Shown: piece after piece, positions 4,997 through 37,073 of the stretch
Layout of the letters: each line of letters starts with the position of its first letter
How positions within the stretch are numbered: position 1 is the first letter of the stretch
Source: Dehalococcoidia bacterium
GTDB taxonomy: Bacteria; Chloroflexota; Dehalococcoidia; Tepidiformales; Tepidiformaceae
Assembly (NCBI GenBank): GCA_022827945.1
Contig: JAJEIT010000012.1
Location: forward strand, 1 to 48,530
DNA: 48,530 nt
Reading direction: 5' to 3'
Notes under the pieces: model-generated
Seen by the model: only the letters and a program-made list of their open reading frames with translations
Databases searched by the model: none
Told to the model about the DNA's origin: nothing
Program-made: the position numbers and the translations under genes

Positions 4997-5422
4997 ATGC
5001 GCATCGCCATCGCCTCCGACCACGCCGGCTACGAGTACAAGGAGGCGATCAAGGCGTTCCTCGCCGAGCGCGGCCACGAGCCGGTCGACTTCGGCACGGA
5101 CTCGGACGAGTCGTGCGACTACCCCCTCTTCATCCGCCCCGCCGCGGAGGCGGTCGGCAGCGGCGACTGCGAGCGCGGCATCGTGCTCGGGGGGTCGGGG
5201 AACGGGGAGGCGATCGTCGCGAACCGGGTGGCAGGCGTGCGCTGCGCCCTCTGCTGGAGCCGCGAGTCGGCGGAGATGGGGCGCCGCCACAACAACGCCA
5301 ACGCGATCTCGATCGGCCAGCGCATGGTCAGCCTGGAGACGGCGCTCGACATCGTCGCGACGTGGCTGGACACGCCGTTCGACGGCGGCCGGCACGCCCG
5401 CCGCATCGCGCAGATCGACTGA
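4997..5422 (+). CDS. rpiB: Ribose-5-phosphate isomerase B, Glu-type
   Basis: This 141-residue enzyme interconverts ribose-5-phosphate and ribulose-5-phosphate in the pentose phosphate pathway. The N-terminal MRIAIASDHAGYEYKEAI and the SDHAG motif are standard. The catalytic loop reads GGSGNGE rather than the CGTGxG of the Escherichia coli enzyme: the catalytic Cys is absent and Glu71 is placed to act as base, as in the mycobacterial RpiB. A second motif, HNNAN, is present. The gene has its own leaderless promoter, and its TGA stop is the first base triplet of repeat array A (5420). Confidence 0.93.
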   Translation: MRIAIASDHAGYEYKEAIKAFLAERGHEPVDFGTDSDESCDYPLFIRPAAEAVGSGDCERGIVLGGSGNGEAIVANRVAGVRCALCWSRESAEMGRRHNNANAISIGQRMVSLETALDIVATWLDTPFDGGRHARRIAQID

Positions 5423-5539
5423 GGAGAGCGCTCGCTACGCTCGCTGAGTGGAGCGCCGCGCTGACGCGCGGCTGAGGAGAGCGCTCCGCGCTGCGCGCGT
5501 TCGCTGAGCAGAGCGCGCGGCAGCCGCCGCGCTGAGTGG
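5420..5539 (+). repeat. Palindromic linker-arm repeat array A
   Basis: Conserved 12-nt linkers alternate along the array: (C)TGAGGAGAGCG at 5420 and 5472, CTGAGTGGAGCG at 5444, a variant CTGAGCAGAGCG at 5504 and a truncated CTGAGTGG at 5532. Between them are 13-20 nt arms that differ in sequence but are largely self-complementary. The first three bases of the array, TGA, are the stop codon of rpiB. It lies between rpiB and a convergent small gene. Confidence 0.8.
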
Positions 5540-5546
5540 GGGCGGG

Positions 5547-5774
5547 CTAGCGCTCGGCGAGCCGCGCCTCGATACGGTTCAACGTGGCGAGGATAGCGGT
5601 GAGGAGAACCTGATTCGCCGACTCGAAGTCATGGGTTCCAAGCGATTTCGCGTCGGCCATGCCAGCTTCACGGGCTGCCCGCTCCGCCCTGGACTGCCGG
5701 AGCCTCTCCTGGCTCTCGCGAATGAGACGCTTGATCTGCAGACGCCGATCGTCCCACTCCGGAGGTACTGGCAT
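5547..5774 (-). CDS. Small charged helical protein, unknown
   Basis: I choose the start at ATG 5774, giving 75 residues beginning MPVPPEWDDRRLQIKR. The frame is open further upstream, but that part has no gene-like character. The protein is rich in Arg, Glu and Ala with heptad-like spacing, so a coiled coil is likely; it has no membrane segment and no motif I recognise. It lies between repeat arrays A and B and points toward rpiB. The coding call rests on length and composition only. Confidence 0.45.
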   Translation of the reverse strand: MPVPPEWDDRRLQIKRLIRESQERLRQSRAERAAREAGMADAKSLGTHDFESANQVLLTAILATLNRIEARLAER

Positions 5775-5903
5775 ATCTGCAGCATACCTTGTAGTTCGCA
5801 AGCTCGGTGACATAGGGAGACTGTGAAGGCATAGGGTTCGCCGGAATGCCCTAGCTCTGCGGACCGGGTTACTACCACCCGACCACCAAGACTCGCCGTC
5901 CCA

Positions 5904-6029
5904 TGCTCTCACTCAGCGCGGCGATAGCCGCGCGCTCCACTCAGGCGGGCGTAGCCCGCCGCTCTCCTCAGCGAGGCGCCGGAGGCGCGAGCGCTCCACT
6001 CAGCCGCGCGGCAGCCCGCCGCTCTCCTA
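5904..6029 (+). repeat. Palindromic linker-arm repeat array B
   Basis: Read on the plus strand, linkers CGCTCCACTCAG and CGCTCTCCTCAG alternate (a degenerate copy opens the array at 5904). Arms such as CGCGGC/GCCGCG, GCGGGC/GCCCGC and GCGCC/GGCGC form hairpins with 3-4 nt loops. The array ends CGCTCTCCTA, in which CTA is the reverse complement of the thiolase stop codon. It is the same family as arrays A, C and D, here in opposite orientation to array A. Confidence 0.8.
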
Positions 6030-7202
6030 GTCGAGGCGCTCGAAGATGGTGGCGATGCCCTGGCCACCGCCGATGCAGAGGCTGACCAGGCCGTAGCGGC
6101 CGCCCGTTCGCTCCAGCTCGTGCATCAGCTTCACCGTCAGGATGGTGCCGGTCGCGCCCACGGGGTGGCCGAGGGCGATGGCGCCGCCGTTCGGGTTCGT
6201 CTTCTGCGGGTCGAGCGAGAGCTCGTTCGAGCAGGCGCAAGCGACGCTGGCGAAGGCCTCGTTCAGTTCGATCACGTCCATCTGGTCGAGGGACATGTCG
6301 GCCTTGTCGAGCACCTTGTGCACGGCCGGGATGGGGCCGCTGCCCATGATCGACGGGTCGACGCCCGCTTCGGCGCGGGCGATGAGCCGCATGCGGGGCT
6401 TCACGCCCAACGCATCCGCCTTGGCCGCGCTCATCACAACCGTGGCGGCGGCGCCGTCGTTGATGCCGCTGGCGTTGCCGGGGGTCACCATGCCGTCCTT
6501 CTTGAAGGCGGGGCGCAGCTTGGCGAGCTGGTCGGGCGTGCTCGCGCGGGGGAACTCGTCCGTGTCGAAGACGCGCTCTTCGCGGCGCTCGCGCACCGTG
6601 ACGGGAACGATCTGGTCCTTGAAGTAGCCCTGCTCGATAGCGTTCAGGGCGCGGCGCTGGCTCTCCGCGGAGAACTCGTCCTGGGCGGTGCGGGAGATCT
6701 CGTACTCCTCGGCGAGCTTCTCCGCGGTGATGCCCATGTGCGTGTCCTCGAAGGGGTCGCTGAGCAGCTTGACGATGCCGTCCTGGATCTCGTCGTGGCC
6801 GAGGCGGTAGCCGGAGCGCGCCTTGCGCAGGTAGAAGGGCAGGCGCGTCATGTTCTCCGCGCCGCCGGCGACGACGACGTCGGCGTCGCCCGTCTCGATG
6901 TAGCGGGCGGCGGTGTTGATGGCCTCGAGACCGCTGCCGCAGAGTCGGTTGATGTTGACGGCGGGCGTCTCGACGGGGATGCCGGCCCTGATGCCGGAGA
7001 CGCGGGAGAGGTAGGCGTCCTCGGCCACCTGGCCGACGATGCCCATGACGATCTGGTCGACCTCGCCAACGTCGACGCCGGCGCGGTTGACGGCCTCGGC
7101 GATGACGGTGGAGCCGAGCTCACTGGCGGGGGTGTTGGCGAGCGAACCGTTGAACGTGCCGATAGCGGTGCGAACGCCGCTTGCGAGGACAACATCTTCC
7201 AT
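6027..7202 (-). CDS. Acetyl-CoA acetyltransferase (thiolase)
   Basis: The 391-residue protein has the full thiolase layout. The acyl-accepting Cys88 is in NRLCGSG, His346 in GGAIALGHPVGATG and the second catalytic Cys376 in SLCIGGGQG. It would condense two acetyl-CoA or cleave 3-ketoacyl-CoA; sequence alone does not decide the direction. The start at 7202 is supported by an AAGG site about ten bases upstream. No other beta-oxidation or polyhydroxyalkanoate gene is adjacent, so the substrate range is unknown. The TAG stop abuts repeat array B. A divergent acetyltransferase gene begins 121 bp upstream. Confidence 0.93.
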   Translation of the reverse strand: MEDVVLASGVRTAIGTFNGSLANTPASELGSTVIAEAVNRAGVDVGEVDQIVMGIVGQVAEDAYLSRVSGIRAGIPVETPAVNINRLCGSGLEAINTAARYIETGDADVVVAGGAENMTRLPFYLRKARSGYRLGHDEIQDGIVKLLSDPFEDTHMGITAEKLAEEYEISRTAQDEFSAESQRRALNAIEQGYFKDQIVPVTVRERREERVFDTDEFPRASTPDQLAKLRPAFKKDGMVTPGNASGINDGAAATVVMSAAKADALGVKPRMRLIARAEAGVDPSIMGSGPIPAVHKVLDKADMSLDQMDVIELNEAFASVACACSNELSLDPQKTNPNGGAIALGHPVGATGTILTVKLMHELERTGGRYGLVSLCIGGGQGIATIFERLD

Positions 7203-7322
7203 GGCGGTACCTTCCCTGGGAGCGGCGGCGCGCGCCGCCGGAATTGTGCGCGCCATTGTAGCCCCTTCCGTCCGCCCGGAGGGCGGGCGCGCGAGAACGG
7301 CGCGGCCTCTAGGATGGGGCGC

Positions 7323-8189
7323 GTGAGCCGCTTCGCCGTTCGTGCCGCCGACAGCGACGACGCACCCGAGCTGGCGGAGCTGCTGGCGGAGGCGTTCGCG
7401 GGGTCGAACGCCTGCTACCCGGAGCCGGAGGCGCCCGCGGAGGCCGACCTGGCCGTGCGCATGCAGACGGGCGAGGCGTTCCTGCTGGCGGAGAGCGACG
7501 GCGATGTCGTCGGGGTGGTGCGGCGGAGCGAGGAGGAGGGGATCGCGAGCTTCGACCTGCTGGCTTCGCAGGAGGCGGGGGCGGGGCGGGCGCTCGTGCG
7601 GGCGGTGGAAGCCCGCGCCCAGGACGGCGGACTGCGGCTCGTGCGGGCGCGGCTCCCGGACGAACCGCGGCTGGCCGACTACTTGGCGGCGCTCGGTTAC
7701 CTGCCCATCGGGCGCGCGAACGAGGCGTTCCGTGGCGAGCAGGTCGCCATCCTCACGGTCGAGCGGCGGCTGCCGCTGCTGACCGTGCGGGAGCAGCGGC
7801 GCAGCGACGCGGACGCGATCGCGTCGCTGGCGGGCGAGGATCCGTGGCCGTTCGAGCAGGGTTCGCGCCCCGGCTGGTTCGTCGCCTCCGACGGCGACCG
7901 CGTCGTGGGCGTCATCCAGGCGCGGGACACGGGGGGCGGTCTGGCGGCCATCCGCGAACCGGCGCTGGCGGCGGGGTACGAGGGGCGCGGTCTGGACGCG
8001 TGGATGGTCGAGCGCGCGGCGGACTACGCGGGAACGCACGGCTCGCACACGGCGGAGCTGCCGCTGACCGAGGCCACGGCGCCGCTCCAGCGGCTGCTGG
8101 AGGATCGCGGCTGGGACCTCGAGCGGGGCAGTGACCGCTACGTGAAGCGATTGAGCGGGCAGGTCCGCGAGGACGCCTTCACGGACTAG
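7323..8189 (+). CDS. Double GNAT-fold acetyltransferase-like protein
   Basis: About 288 residues. The N-terminal half (FAVRAADSDDAPELAELLAE to about residue 120) reads like a GNAT domain and a second, weaker GNAT-like repeat follows (about 145-280, beginning TVREQRRSDADAIASL). The classical acetyl-CoA loop Q/RxxGxG/A is poorly kept in both, so activity is uncertain. The start is either GTG 7323 or ATG 7314. TAGGAT at 7310-7315 lies seven bases before the GTG, which fits the leaderless pattern seen elsewhere in the window. The substrate is unknown. Confidence 0.7.
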   Translation: MSRFAVRAADSDDAPELAELLAEAFAGSNACYPEPEAPAEADLAVRMQTGEAFLLAESDGDVVGVVRRSEEEGIASFDLLASQEAGAGRALVRAVEARAQDGGLRLVRARLPDEPRLADYLAALGYLPIGRANEAFRGEQVAILTVERRLPLLTVREQRRSDADAIASLAGEDPWPFEQGSRPGWFVASDGDRVVGVIQARDTGGGLAAIREPALAAGYEGRGLDAWMVERAADYAGTHGSHTAELPLTEATAPLQRLLEDRGWDLERGSDRYVKRLSGQVREDAFTD

Positions 8190-8209
8190 ACTTGCCGCCG
8201 GGGGTGCTG

Positions 8210-8743
8210 ATGAAGTCCCGGCTGGTTGGGGTCGCGTGTGCGCTCGTGCTGGCGTCACTCGCCTTCGCGGCCTGTTCCGACGACGAGCCGGGGCCTTACC
8301 TCGGGGAGGGCGAGGAGGGGAACATCGCGTGGCGCGCGGAGCGCGATCCCACCAGCAACTACCTCACGTCGGTCGTGTGGATCACCTCCGAGCCGTGGCG
8401 CGATGAGCACGAGCGAGAACTCACCGCCACCCTGATGCTCTACTGCGACGGCTCCCGTGTGATCGTCCTGCTCGAGACGGGAGCGAACCAACCAAAGGGC
8501 GACGTGATCTGGCAAGTCGACGACGGTCCCGAGGTCTCCGAATTCTGGACACAGCCCTGGTGGGGCGACGAAGGCGACATGCTCCCGCGCATCGCAGACA
8601 GGATGATCCGCGACCTGAAAGGCGCCTCGCGTTTCGCCATCACGACAGCGGGCACGCCAGAGCTCGCGTTCAACCTCGACGGCGCGCTGGAGACGCCGGT
8701 GCAGCCCAACATCGACAACTGCTCACTCGAGGGCTGGCGCTAG
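8210..8743 (+). CDS. Small lipoprotein, unknown
   Basis: The 177-residue product starts MKSRLVGVACALVLASL and has a lipobox ending AFAAC (Cys22), followed by an acidic stretch, so it is predicted to be exported and lipid-anchored. The mature part is rich in Trp, Glu and Asp, with no family I recognise; it ends with a Cys close to the C-terminus (NCSLEGWR). I prefer ATG 8210 with GGGGGTG upstream over the TTG at 8192. It follows the GNAT gene by 20 bp and converges on the nitroreductase gene. Confidence 0.7.
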   Translation: MKSRLVGVACALVLASLAFAACSDDEPGPYLGEGEEGNIAWRAERDPTSNYLTSVVWITSEPWRDEHERELTATLMLYCDGSRVIVLLETGANQPKGDVIWQVDDGPEVSEFWTQPWWGDEGDMLPRIADRMIRDLKGASRFAITTAGTPELAFNLDGALETPVQPNIDNCSLEGWR

Positions 8744-11352: not shown

Positions 11353-11387
11353 GCCGTGAGCCTAGCGGAAGGTCACCGAAACCGGAA

Positions 11388-11490
11388 AAGGCGCCGGCCC
11401 TGGACCCGGCGCCTTCTGGCTGTGCCTGGTGCGGGAGGAGCGTCCCTAGGCGTCGAAGTAGAGGGAGAACTCGTACGAATGTCGACCGCC
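11388..11490 (-). repeat. Displaced copy of the glnA 3' end and its terminator
   Basis: These 103 bp match 12240-12350 closely. They contain the terminator stem AGGCGCCGG / CCGGCGCCT (followed by TTTTC on the minus strand), the same downstream spacer, a TAG stop and the codons for the last glnA residues (EFSLYFDA). After that, 12-13 bases are lost before a shared ATGTCGACCGCC. The copy lies about 850 bp from the original, on the far side of hicAB. It no longer encodes a protein but still looks able to terminate minus-strand transcription. Confidence 0.8.
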
Positions 11491-12045: not shown

Positions 12046-12239
12046 GGCCCGGCTTCGGAAGGGCGTCCTTCAAACTCGCTGTCATACCACCACCGGGAGA
12101 CGGTAGCTCCTGTTCCAGTGCCACCCAGAACGACTCTGAGGGTTCACCCTCTGAGCAGACCTCGGAACAACACCATCAGGCAATAGTTTCCCCGCTGCAG
12201 ATGCGGAGATCAAACGGCGTCTGGGGGGTGGAACATGAG

Positions 12240-12350
12240 AAGGCGCCGGCCCTGGAGCCGGCGCCTTCTGACTGTGCCTGGTGCGGGAAAGCCGACTAGG
12301 CGTCGAAGTAGAGGGAGAACTCGTGGGGATGCGGGCGGATGTCGACCGCC
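12240..12350 (-). repeat. Original glnA 3' end and terminator (duplicated segment)
   Basis: This is the native partner of the copy at 11388. It covers the last 18 codons of glnA, the stop codon (12296-12298), a 25-bp spacer and the terminator stem AAGGCGCCGGC / GCCGGCGCCTT at 12240-12270. The pair forms imperfect direct repeats flanking hicBA. Confidence 0.8.
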
Positions 12351-22848: not shown

Positions 22849-22915
22849 TTCCCGTAACGGTACAGACCGCCGGGTTGGTCCCTCCAGTGTATGGCCCGAC
22901 GTTAGACGCGACAAG

Positions 22916-22962
22916 CCGCGCGGTAGCGCGGCGCTGCACTCAGCGAGCGGAGCGCTCTCCTA
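22916..22962 (+). repeat. Palindromic linker-arm repeat array C (short)
   Basis: One full hairpin arm (CCGCGC..GCGCGG), the linker CGCTGCACTCAG, a short arm, and the terminal CGCTCTCCTA, in which CTA is the stop of the metallo-beta-lactamase gene on the minus strand. Same family as arrays A, B and D. Confidence 0.72.
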
Positions 22963-23604
22963 CGACTCCAGCCAGAGGACGTCGCCGTGCAGGTCGGGGG
23001 CGTGGTCGCGGGAGGCGAAGACCTCGTATTCGGCCTTGCTGGCGCCGATCGTCGTGTTGTCGCCGTGGCCGGGCCAGACGGTCGTGTCGTCGGGGAGGGC
23101 GTAGAGGCGGGTGGTGATGGAGGCGATCTCCTGCTGGAGGAGCTCGTTCGAGCGGGAGTGGCCGGGACCGCCGGGGAAGAGCGTGTCGCCGACGAAGGCG
23201 TGGGCGCCGTGGATGAAGGCCGTGCTCGCGGGCGTATGGCCGGGAATGGAGACGACATCGAACGTGAGTCCGCCCACCTTCACGGTGTCACCGTCCGAGA
23301 TGGCCTCGTCGAGCGTGCCCTCGGGGATCCAGGGCTCGACGGGATCGCCGATGAGGCGGCAGCCGTAGCGCTCCTTGAGCGCGACGATGCTGGCGGTGTG
23401 GTCGCCGTGGGAGTGCGTCAGCAGGATGGTGGAGGGCTCGACGCCGGCGAACTCGACGGCGGCGATGCTCTTCTCGACCTCGTCGGGGGCGTCGATGAAG
23501 GCGGCCTCGCCGGACGCCTCGTCGATCACGATGTAGATGTTGTTGCCGAATCCGGCGGGCCCGGCGCGTACGATCCCGAGATCGCCGTCGACCAGCTTCT
23601 CCAT
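22960..23604 (-). CDS. Metallo-beta-lactamase-fold hydrolase (glyoxalase II-like)
   Basis: The 214-residue protein has the zinc motif THSHGDHT (HxHxDH), the later GHTPAS His and VFGDTLF-like segment AHAFVGDTLFPGG with bridging Asp, and a C-terminal WPGHGDNTTIG His. That set matches glyoxalase II / persulfide dioxygenase-type hydrolases; the substrate is not determined. I start at ATG 23604 with GGGGGAGGA upstream rather than the longer open frame. The TAG stop abuts array C. Confidence 0.9.
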   Translation of the reverse strand: MEKLVDGDLGIVRAGPAGFGNNIYIVIDEASGEAAFIDAPDEVEKSIAAVEFAGVEPSTILLTHSHGDHTASIVALKERYGCRLIGDPVEPWIPEGTLDEAISDGDTVKVGGLTFDVVSIPGHTPASTAFIHGAHAFVGDTLFPGGPGHSRSNELLQQEIASITTRLYALPDDTTVWPGHGDNTTIGASKAEYEVFASRDHAPDLHGDVLWLES

Positions 23605-23656
23605 GGCGTCCTCCCCCGTTGTCGGTGTTGGAGCCAAGGGTACCGGGCGGAGGGCG

Positions 23657-23896
23657 TCAGCGGGGCCGGGGAATCGGGTCTCCAGCCTCAAGGGCATCGG
23701 CAATCCATGCCTCAATCGCCCTGTCGATGTTCTCCAGCAATTCGCCGCGGCTTCGTCCCTGAGCGATGCAGCCGGGAAGATCCCTCACTTCAGCCACCCA
23801 CCCTGCGTCTCCGTCATCCGATTCGCTCCAGAGGACTTCAACGTCGTACGGCTGGTGAGAGTGTCCCTGGAACGTCCCTGTGCCCACTTGAAGCAC
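23657..23896 (-). CDS. HicB-like protein without a neighbouring HicA
   Basis: A 79-residue protein starting at a GTG (23896) with the HicB/UPF0150 signature WVAEVRDLPGCIAQGRSRGELLENI shortened to about 30 residues of core. No HicA-like frame is found within 300 bp on either side. It may be an orphan antitoxin, a small regulator, or the remnant of a lost pair. Confidence 0.7.
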   Translation of the reverse strand: MLQVGTGTFQGHSHQPYDVEVLWSESDDGDAGWVAEVRDLPGCIAQGRSRGELLENIDRAIEAWIADALEAGDPIPRPR

Positions 23897-35623: not shown

Positions 35624-35645
35624 GACGGTGGCCGGTGGTCGGTGG

Positions 35646-35765
35646 CCCACTCAGCGGCGCGATAGCGACGCGCTCCACTCAGCGATGGCGCGCAGCGCCG
35701 AGCGCTCTCCTCAGGCGGGCGGCAGCCCGCCGCTCCACTCAGCGAGCGCAGCGAGTGCTCTCCTA
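35646..35765 (+). repeat. Palindromic linker-arm repeat array D
   Basis: Linkers CCACTCAG, CGCTCCACTCAG, CGCTCTCCTCAG, CGCTCCACTCAG and a terminal TGCTCTCCTA separate arms such as GCGGGC..GCCCGC. The last CTA (35763-35765) is the reverse of the portal-protein stop codon. It is the largest array after A and B and occupies most of the gap between the DUF2269-like gene and the portal gene. Confidence 0.8.
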
Positions 35766-37073
35766 CCCCGGCAGCGCGGCGCGCTCCTCCTGGACGCGCG
35801 CCCATTCGGCTTCGGGGTCCTCGGAGCCGAGGCGTTCGGCGGCGGTTCGGCGGGAGCGGATGCCCGCCTCGACGAGCGAGCGCTCGTCGGCGACCTGGCG
35901 GGAGCGGTCGGCGGGGAGGACGGGGCCCCACAGCGCCTCCGCCTGCAGGCCGTCGATGGGCAGCCCCTCGTAGCGCGCGAGCAGGCGCAGGGCGAGCATC
36001 GCGCGGCGCTCGTAGACGGGCGTGCGGATGAGCCGCTTGCGCGCGACCTTCCGCGCCACCGGGTCGAGCTCGACGTTGAGGGCGACGCCGCTCAGGCCCG
36101 CGGGGTTCTGCCCGAAGGCCGTGCGAGGGGACTCCCCGAGGTCGTGCAGGGTGCGGTAGACGAGGTCGATGTAGTCGCGGTGGAGGGCGGCTCCGCCGCC
36201 CTGCAGCAGGTCGAGCAGGTAGGCGCGGGCGCGCTCCGGCACCTCCCACACGGCCCCCGGCTCGACAGCGATGTCCTGCGACCCGGCCACGCCCTCGAGC
36301 ACGGCGATGGGATTGCCCGAAAGCTCCAGTATCTGGCTGAGCTGGCTGAAGGCGCGGTTCAGCTCGCGGTTCGGTTCGGCCAGCGGCCCGATGTCGCTTG
36401 AGCCCCACGGCTGCTTCGGCTCACTCACGTTGGGGAAGACGACGAAGGGAATGAACCCGTACGGGTTCTCCTCGCGGCGCTCCAGCTCCGGCCCGCGCCA
36501 CAGCTCGAACGTCTCCGCCGTCCAGCGCTCCGTCACGACGTTGTCGACGGCCGAGGGGGAGAGGGGCAGGGTGGACGTGGGGAGGGGCGCGTCGCCGGCG
36601 GCGTACTGCGAGGCGACCGCCTCGATGCGCGAGGCGTCGTCGGGGGCGCGCCAGACGAAGACGCCTTGCACGTCGGGCGCGGAGATGCGCACGCGTCCCT
36701 CGTCCACGTCCCACGTGACCTTGTAGGCGCCGTCGCCGAGCACGGCGCAGTCGAGCTCCGTCTCGAAGTCGAGCCGCTCGAGCCCGTTCGCCGCTTCGAC
36801 GGCGCGCCAGGCCTGCTCGGCTGCCCGCGCGCGCTCGACGGCAGCGCGGTCGAGCGGGTCGAGCGGACGGACCTGGAGGGCGTGTCCTTCGAACAGGTAG
36901 CTCGTGATCTTGTCGACGAACGCCCTCGCGTAGTTGAGCACGAGGCGGCGCTCGCCGCGGCGGGCGCGTCCCGCCCACTGGTCGCCCTCGTAGAAGGCGA
37001 GGTGCTCGCGGTAGCGGCGCAGGCGGTCCTGGTCGAGGGCGCGGAGCTGGAGGGGGAAGGGGGTGGCCGTCAC
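35763..37073 (-). CDS. Phage portal protein (SPP1 gp6 type)
   Basis: The 436-residue protein starts at GTG 37073, with CGGAG upstream. RRYREHLAFYEGDQW and LVLNYARAFVDKITSYLFEG are the classical N-terminal signature of SPP1-like portals, the ring through which DNA enters the head. The middle has NPYGFIPFVVFPN and PNRELNRAFSQLSQILELSG, the C-terminus a tail of clip/crown helices. The frame is complete and the length is normal for the family. It is flanked by a host DUF2269-like gene and clpS, with no other phage gene adjacent; the stop abuts array D. Confidence 0.88.
   Translation of the reverse strand: MTATPFPLQLRALDQDRLRRYREHLAFYEGDQWAGRARRGERRLVLNYARAFVDKITSYLFEGHALQVRPLDPLDRAAVERARAAEQAWRAVEAANGLERLDFETELDCAVLGDGAYKVTWDVDEGRVRISAPDVQGVFVWRAPDDASRIEAVASQYAAGDAPLPTSTLPLSPSAVDNVVTERWTAETFELWRGPELERREENPYGFIPFVVFPNVSEPKQPWGSSDIGPLAEPNRELNRAFSQLSQILELSGNPIAVLEGVAGSQDIAVEPGAVWEVPERARAYLLDLLQGGGAALHRDYIDLVYRTLHDLGESPRTAFGQNPAGLSGVALNVELDPVARKVARKRLIRTPVYERRAMLALRLLARYEGLPIDGLQAEALWGPVLPADRSRQVADERSLVEAGIRSRRTAAERLGSEDPEAEWARVQEERAALPG

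Follow-up and report, generated by a model that had tools for sequence, protein, structure and literature searches.

Among described repeats, those closest to the arrays analyzed here are the GTAG REPs and BIMEs, short intergenic palindromes which are often clustered, lie mostly downstream of genes and carry a conserved unpaired tag at the foot of the hairpin (PMC3733652). Repeats of the GTAG superfamily have been reported from Chloroflexi too, and their REP termini also supply TAG stop codons (PMC3733652); stop-supplying repeats as a phenomenon are not new. About 11% of the REPs in E. coli are located within 15 nt of a stop codon, and the potential stalling of terminating ribosomes by such hairpins has been discussed (PMC12306157). 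The Coxiella elements QMITE1 and QMITE2 are structured repeats with terminal inverted repeats and direct repeats, which extend a few bases into gene 3' ends and are able to shift the stop codon (PMC5896051). CGTC-tagged palindromes, some Rickettsia palindromic elements among them, have no associated transposase and occur as single hairpins or inverted dimers with a conserved family consensus (PMC3733652). Our literature search found no paper on repeats of the present kind in Dehalococcoidia.

The arrays studied here share with the GTAG REPs and BIMEs their small size, palindromic nature, clustering, position mainly downstream of genes and the unpaired tag at the hairpin foot. The tag itself, however, is TGAG..GGAG and not GTAG (edge and linkers GGAGAGC, CTGAGTGGAGC and CTGAGGAGAGC), the family has no conserved stem sequence, the hairpins form head-to-tail units of four where BIMEs are inverted dimers, and there are only about 5-17 arrays per genome in a genus without RAYT. 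As in E. coli a stable hairpin lies a few nt from the stop, but here it does so within 1 nt at 14 of 21 loci. The overlap with gene ends recalls the QMITEs, whereas we see four tandem hairpins and no target duplication; the missing transposase is shared with the CGTC-tagged palindromes, from which the arrays differ in tag, unit and stem consensus. Four hairpins per unit, TGAG-GGAG linkers, stems of variable sequence and the absence of RAYT distinguish this family; we therefore describe the element as working like REPs and do not file it in the GTAG superfamily.

The window, i.e. the whole stretch of 48,530 nt analyzed here, is part of contig C60 of a 2.85-Mb MAG with 99 contigs. It contains four arrays (Table 1). 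The earlier note had claimed that all of them meet a gene exactly at its stop codon, in both orientations, and this holds in the window: each array starts on or directly after the stop and always has the orientation of its own gene. The junction of rpiB and A1 reads TGA-GGAGAGCG on the plus strand, and those of A2, A3 and A4 read TA(G)GAGAG, with one G common to TAG and GGAG. A3, the array from which the earlier note set out, is the only shortened one of the four. The true start of the thiolase gene probably lies further inside its longest open reading frame.

Table 1. Arrays, adjoining genes and compared intervals; positions refer to the window unless a locus is named.
Feature	Position	Strand	Remarks
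Array A1	5423..5539	+	four hairpins, sense, directly after rpiB stop TGA (5420-5422); linkers GGAGAGC, CTGAGTGGAGC, CTGAGGAGAGC, CTGAGCAGAGC; 3' end CTGAGTGG
Array A2	5909..6027	-	four hairpins; shares its opening G with the thiolase stop TAG (6027-6029)
Array A3	22914..22960	-	two hairpins; shares its opening G with the metallo-beta-lactamase stop TAG (22960-22962)
Array A4	35647..35763	-	four hairpins; shares its opening G with the portal stop TAG (35763-35765)
rpiB (LacAB_rpiB)	4997..5422	+	adjoined by A1; Pfam PF02502, E 8e-56
Longest ORF with thiolase gene	6027..8258	-	adjoined by A2; Pfam PF00108/PF02803
Metallo-beta-lactamase fold gene (MBL)	22960..23715	-	adjoined by A3; Pfam PF00753
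SPP1-type portal protein gene	35763..37073	-	adjoined by A4; Pfam PF05133
Stretch between A1 and A2	5540..5908	.	arrays point inward; small ORF 5547-5912 (-); used in interspecies comparison
Same interval, locus L131	2606-3292		used in interspecies comparison
Same interval, locus L132	984-1460		used in interspecies comparison

The stretch enclosed by A1 and A2 differs in content between species. It holds a coiled-coil-like ORF in one congener (G006) and a shortened relative of it in the window's own genome, where the C-terminus of the small ORF resembles that of the G006 frame at the same place; G003 has an unrelated 228-aa ORF without Pfam match (G007 reads as related), and in G002 nothing is left. 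The 3' end of the portal gene has the same neighbour in several congeners. Apart from the arrays the window carries two copies of a 57-nt terminator-like hairpin (11380-11436 and 12232-12288), which are 91% identical and 852 nt apart. No curated RNA family of Rfam matched the window at gathering score. The 38 gene ends called in it comprise 26 TAG, 12 TGA and no TAA, a TAG bias which is strong for a GC-rich genome. Since TAG is the commonest stop here, we dropped the idea of a targeting to TAG as such.

To place the arrays in their genus we compared nine MAGs of Dehalococcoidia, the window's genome (G000) and eight congeners (G001-G008), several of which seem to be sponge-associated judging by their bin names. 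In a protein search the close relatives were Dehalococcoidia/Chloroflexi MAGs, one of them labelled Tepidiformaceae. Arrays were located by a pattern search with a 13-base linker and the surrounding stretches extracted, so that arrays without this linker are missed. The motif has 34 matches in the window's own genome, where a reversed control pattern has none, 7-30 in each of G001-G003 and G005-G007, and 1-2 in G004; none was found in G008, and other genera of the family remain at background level. We parsed 88 arrays, which reduce to 37 independent loci in seven of the nine genomes, after splitting one composite cluster by hand; curation of the loci was manual, also for some array starts with a degenerate first linker. 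To call gene ends in these MAGs we used a simple codon model whose training set was the window.

The element is a discrete unit of about 115-125 nt with four GC-rich hairpins in head-to-tail order, separated by nearly invariant linkers that follow each other in a fixed order. Exactly four hairpins occur in 42 of the 88 parsed arrays and five in one, the remainder having one to three. The array starts with GGAGAGC; in four-hairpin arrays the first linker is CTGAGTGGAGC in 37/42 and the second CTGAGGAGAGC in 32/42 cases, the third is mixed, and the array ends with CTGAGTGGG. The stems, by comparison, are not conserved as they are in GTAG REPs (200 distinct sequences among 273 extracted units), and the loop is T-N-N-C. 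Pairing is nevertheless retained: among 65 distinct hairpins of 18 nt, 362 of 390 pairs at the six inner positions are Watson-Crick, as against a mean of 245 and a maximum of 266 after shuffling. This count is confined to ungapped 18-nt hairpins, a MAFFT alignment of 35 elements having mis-registered two hairpin orders. At orthologous sites the linkers are 96% identical, while rank-matched hairpins differ in length in about half of the cases and otherwise show 91% identity. The arrays are therefore one discrete element with module turnover and not unrelated tandem repeats. At six loci (L040, L063, L099, L113, L119, L121) a palindrome-like insert of about TCTGCGCTCGACTGCTGCGCGCTCGCGA sits in the hairpin tips, i.e. 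as a nested repeat.

An upstream gene in sense orientation is present at 21 loci, and there the gap between stop and array is 0-1 nt in 14 and at most 5 nt in 18 cases. A uniform placement within the present free space predicts 3.0 loci with a gap of up to 1 nt, and 14 were reached in none of 200,000 simulations; this null places one array per locus and scores two loci without usable 3' gap as certain. The array is also anchored on one side, with the 5' gap smaller than the 3' gap at 18 of 19 loci. Thus the count of array starts near stops against chance, which the earlier note had proposed as a check, comes out far above expectation, and the random position that would have spoken against it is not seen relative to the present spacers; still, 13 loci adjoin other borders. 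Ten of these adjoin the start or a TANNNT -10-like box of a gene on the opposite strand, two the 3' end of a tRNA and one an intrinsic terminator, where promoters and tRNAs are putative and read from the sequence. By hand we classified 35 of the 37 loci by border type. The stop side holds 25 of them (P 0.017 for a deviation from 50%), which is the extragenic, mainly downstream location of REPs. Contact with stops is therefore not a rule for all arrays outside the window: of the 16 arrays in the window's own genome about 9 have a stop no more than 1 nt from their start, and the others are found at opposite-strand promoters, a tRNA end, a terminator, 19 nt from a stop or inside a coding end. Stop codons are the commonest border and not the sole one. 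At the portal gene in G003/G006 and at L068 and L035 the coding sequence runs through the first hairpin, and the gene closes at an internal TGA or TAG. The opposite-strand genes at L034, L039, L079, L105 and L120 seem to have no leader: a TANNNT box is all that precedes the start, and the array fills everything upstream of this box.

How much of the precision follows from the compactness of these genomes can be estimated from convergent gene pairs without array. The median length of their spacers is 16.5 nt, and 9 nt or less separate the genes in 21 of 46 pairs, 4-nt overlaps included. Because such gaps are tiny, tolerated insertions must land beside stops. A random tolerated insertion into these spacers would leave 0-1 nt between stop and array in 25-32% of cases, the second figure being worked out by hand with spacers above 200 nt omitted, which probably hide uncalled genes; observed are 67%. 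Exact abutment is thus about two-fold above the compactness expectation (P about 0.001 when tested against the upper value). About half of the precision is accounted for by compactness, and the remainder may reflect a fusion of the stop with the TGAG/TAGG edge of the element itself, or true targeting. The proposed targeting to stop codons keeps this two-fold excess in its favor, whereas the promoter, tRNA and terminator borders and L035, with the element about 8 nt before the ancestral stop, stand against it.

The comparison of gene ends with array-free relatives reveals the same stop codons at most loci. At a convergent SDR-like gene pair two arrays lie between the genes in G003, G005 and G006, where G008 has 3 nt (the junction reads TAG-GAG-TTA) and G002 has 9 nt; the gene identified from its sequence as ilvH is followed by an array in G003 and by a spacer of 4-7 nt in G001 and G002. 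At L080 the genes overlap by GTGA in G001 and G002, while in G007 the array lies between them and the upstream gene is a few codons shorter. At MBL, L105 and rplL (likewise named from sequence) G001 and G002 have a single proto-hairpin at the place of the array. In G002 both arrays between rpiB and the thiolase gene are gone together with the intervening DNA, leaving the relic TGAG-CGCGGCG-CTCTCCTA, which marks a deletion. No target-site duplication was recognized in the empty-site comparisons, the flanks being diverged. The idea that the linker supplies part of the stop applies to some loci but not in general, as the stop positions of thiolase, MBL, rplL, ilvH and the SDR-like pair are unchanged with or without array.

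A transposase of the RAYT type was searched for by its domain Y1_Tnp (PF01797), which has no match in G000 or the eight congeners and is present in other genera of the family; the Y1 loci extracted from these genera have no hairpin-linker array beside them. On both grounds we dropped RAYT mobilization. The arrays lack the T-run of an intrinsic terminator, ending with CTGAGTGGG, and an essential terminator was discarded because at several loci the spacers of array-free relatives are too short to hold one. Sense folds are less stable than antisense folds (antisense versus sense, mean -12.9 versus -12.0 kcal/mol, P 3e-14), so that selection on sense RNA was dropped as well; a count of G-U versus A-C pairs is biased by the folding method and was left out of this question.

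A function in the 3'-UTR, as the earlier note suggested, would mean that hairpins in the sense mRNA serve as terminators, stabilisers or translation modulators and that selection keeps them in place. Every stop-abutting array is in sense orientation, convergent pairs carry two facing arrays, one per gene, the arrays after rplL and tRNA genes lie at the ends of transcription units, the linkers are conserved, and in E. coli, REPs closer than 16 nt to a stop reduce translation (PMC12306157). We nevertheless consider this explanation rather unlikely, since ten loci have no upstream sense gene but only an opposite-strand start or promoter, array-free convergent stops 3-9 nt apart leave no room for a terminator, and neither a T-run nor a sense fold exceeding the antisense one is found. 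The relatives' orthologous genes do without arrays, and the suggestion went unsupported. It is still less probable that an enzyme inserts the element at a short motif such as TA or TGA, found in stops, -10 boxes and some gene ends. Many borders of the stop and the promoter kind have TA directly before the array, which would suit such an enzyme, as would the anchored 5' edge with its free 3' side and the excess over the compactness null; but TA is already implied by TAG stops and TANNNT boxes, it is missing at TGA, CGA, tRNA-end and terminator borders, and no Y1 transposase was found in the nine genomes and no target-site duplication in the diverged flanks of the empty sites. Equally doubtful is an element directed to the edges of functional units (stops, 3' ends of tRNAs, -10 boxes) and recognized by its structure and linkers, not by the sequence of its stems, via an enzyme unrelated to known REP transposases. 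Growth in situ, in which a chance post-stop hairpin is multiplied by slippage or template switching and nothing transposes, could explain the proto-hairpins of G001 and G002, the range of one to five hairpins across species and the scarcity of hairpins with an exact copy elsewhere in the genome. Ordered linkers and the four-hairpin plan at many unrelated loci are not to be expected from independent growth, and we regard this as very improbable.

The reading we favor, and hold to be reasonably probable, is that the arrays are a palindromic intergenic element, similar to REPs and BIMEs, that is tolerated at the borders of genes. It would be a non-coding element specific to the lineage, whose copies multiplied within the genus. 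Most copies now pass by inheritance at their old sites, and the orthologous sites show that hairpins have been gained, lost and rewritten. Arrays would start at stop codons largely because in so compact a genome a landing is tolerated only in the short gaps that separate functional borders such as stops, ends of tRNAs and -10 boxes, and the element would persist only where nothing gets broken. To judge from the empty sites, its 5' edge TGAGGAG or (TA)GGAG may fuse with the stop codon or provide it. Mobility is deduced from the scattered presence and absence; a transposase, a target-site duplication or a recent identical copy was not found among the arrays of the nine genomes. The 96% identity of linkers at orthologous sites argues for function or ongoing recognition and against inert debris. 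By analogy with E. coli, a hairpin a few nt past the stop may mildly affect the expression of the upstream gene. Low-complexity filler of the type CCACCGACCACC, CCAACAGCCAATGG or CACTAGCCACTAG occurs on the 3' side of many arrays (for example window 35625-35647, L037, L065, L178) and also in array-free spacers, often as inverted copies. The tens of bases of filler 3' of single arrays are not accounted for by simple insertion into a tiny spacer.

We thus report a bacterial interspersed repeat in which the linkers and the number of hairpins are largely fixed while the stems are rewritten between close species, and which lives in a genus without detectable REP transposase. With sites in the filled, shortened and empty state at hand in nine related genomes, one can test directly how such elements arise, grow and decay. 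The same sites show how far an exact contact with stop codons follows from the compactness of the genome.
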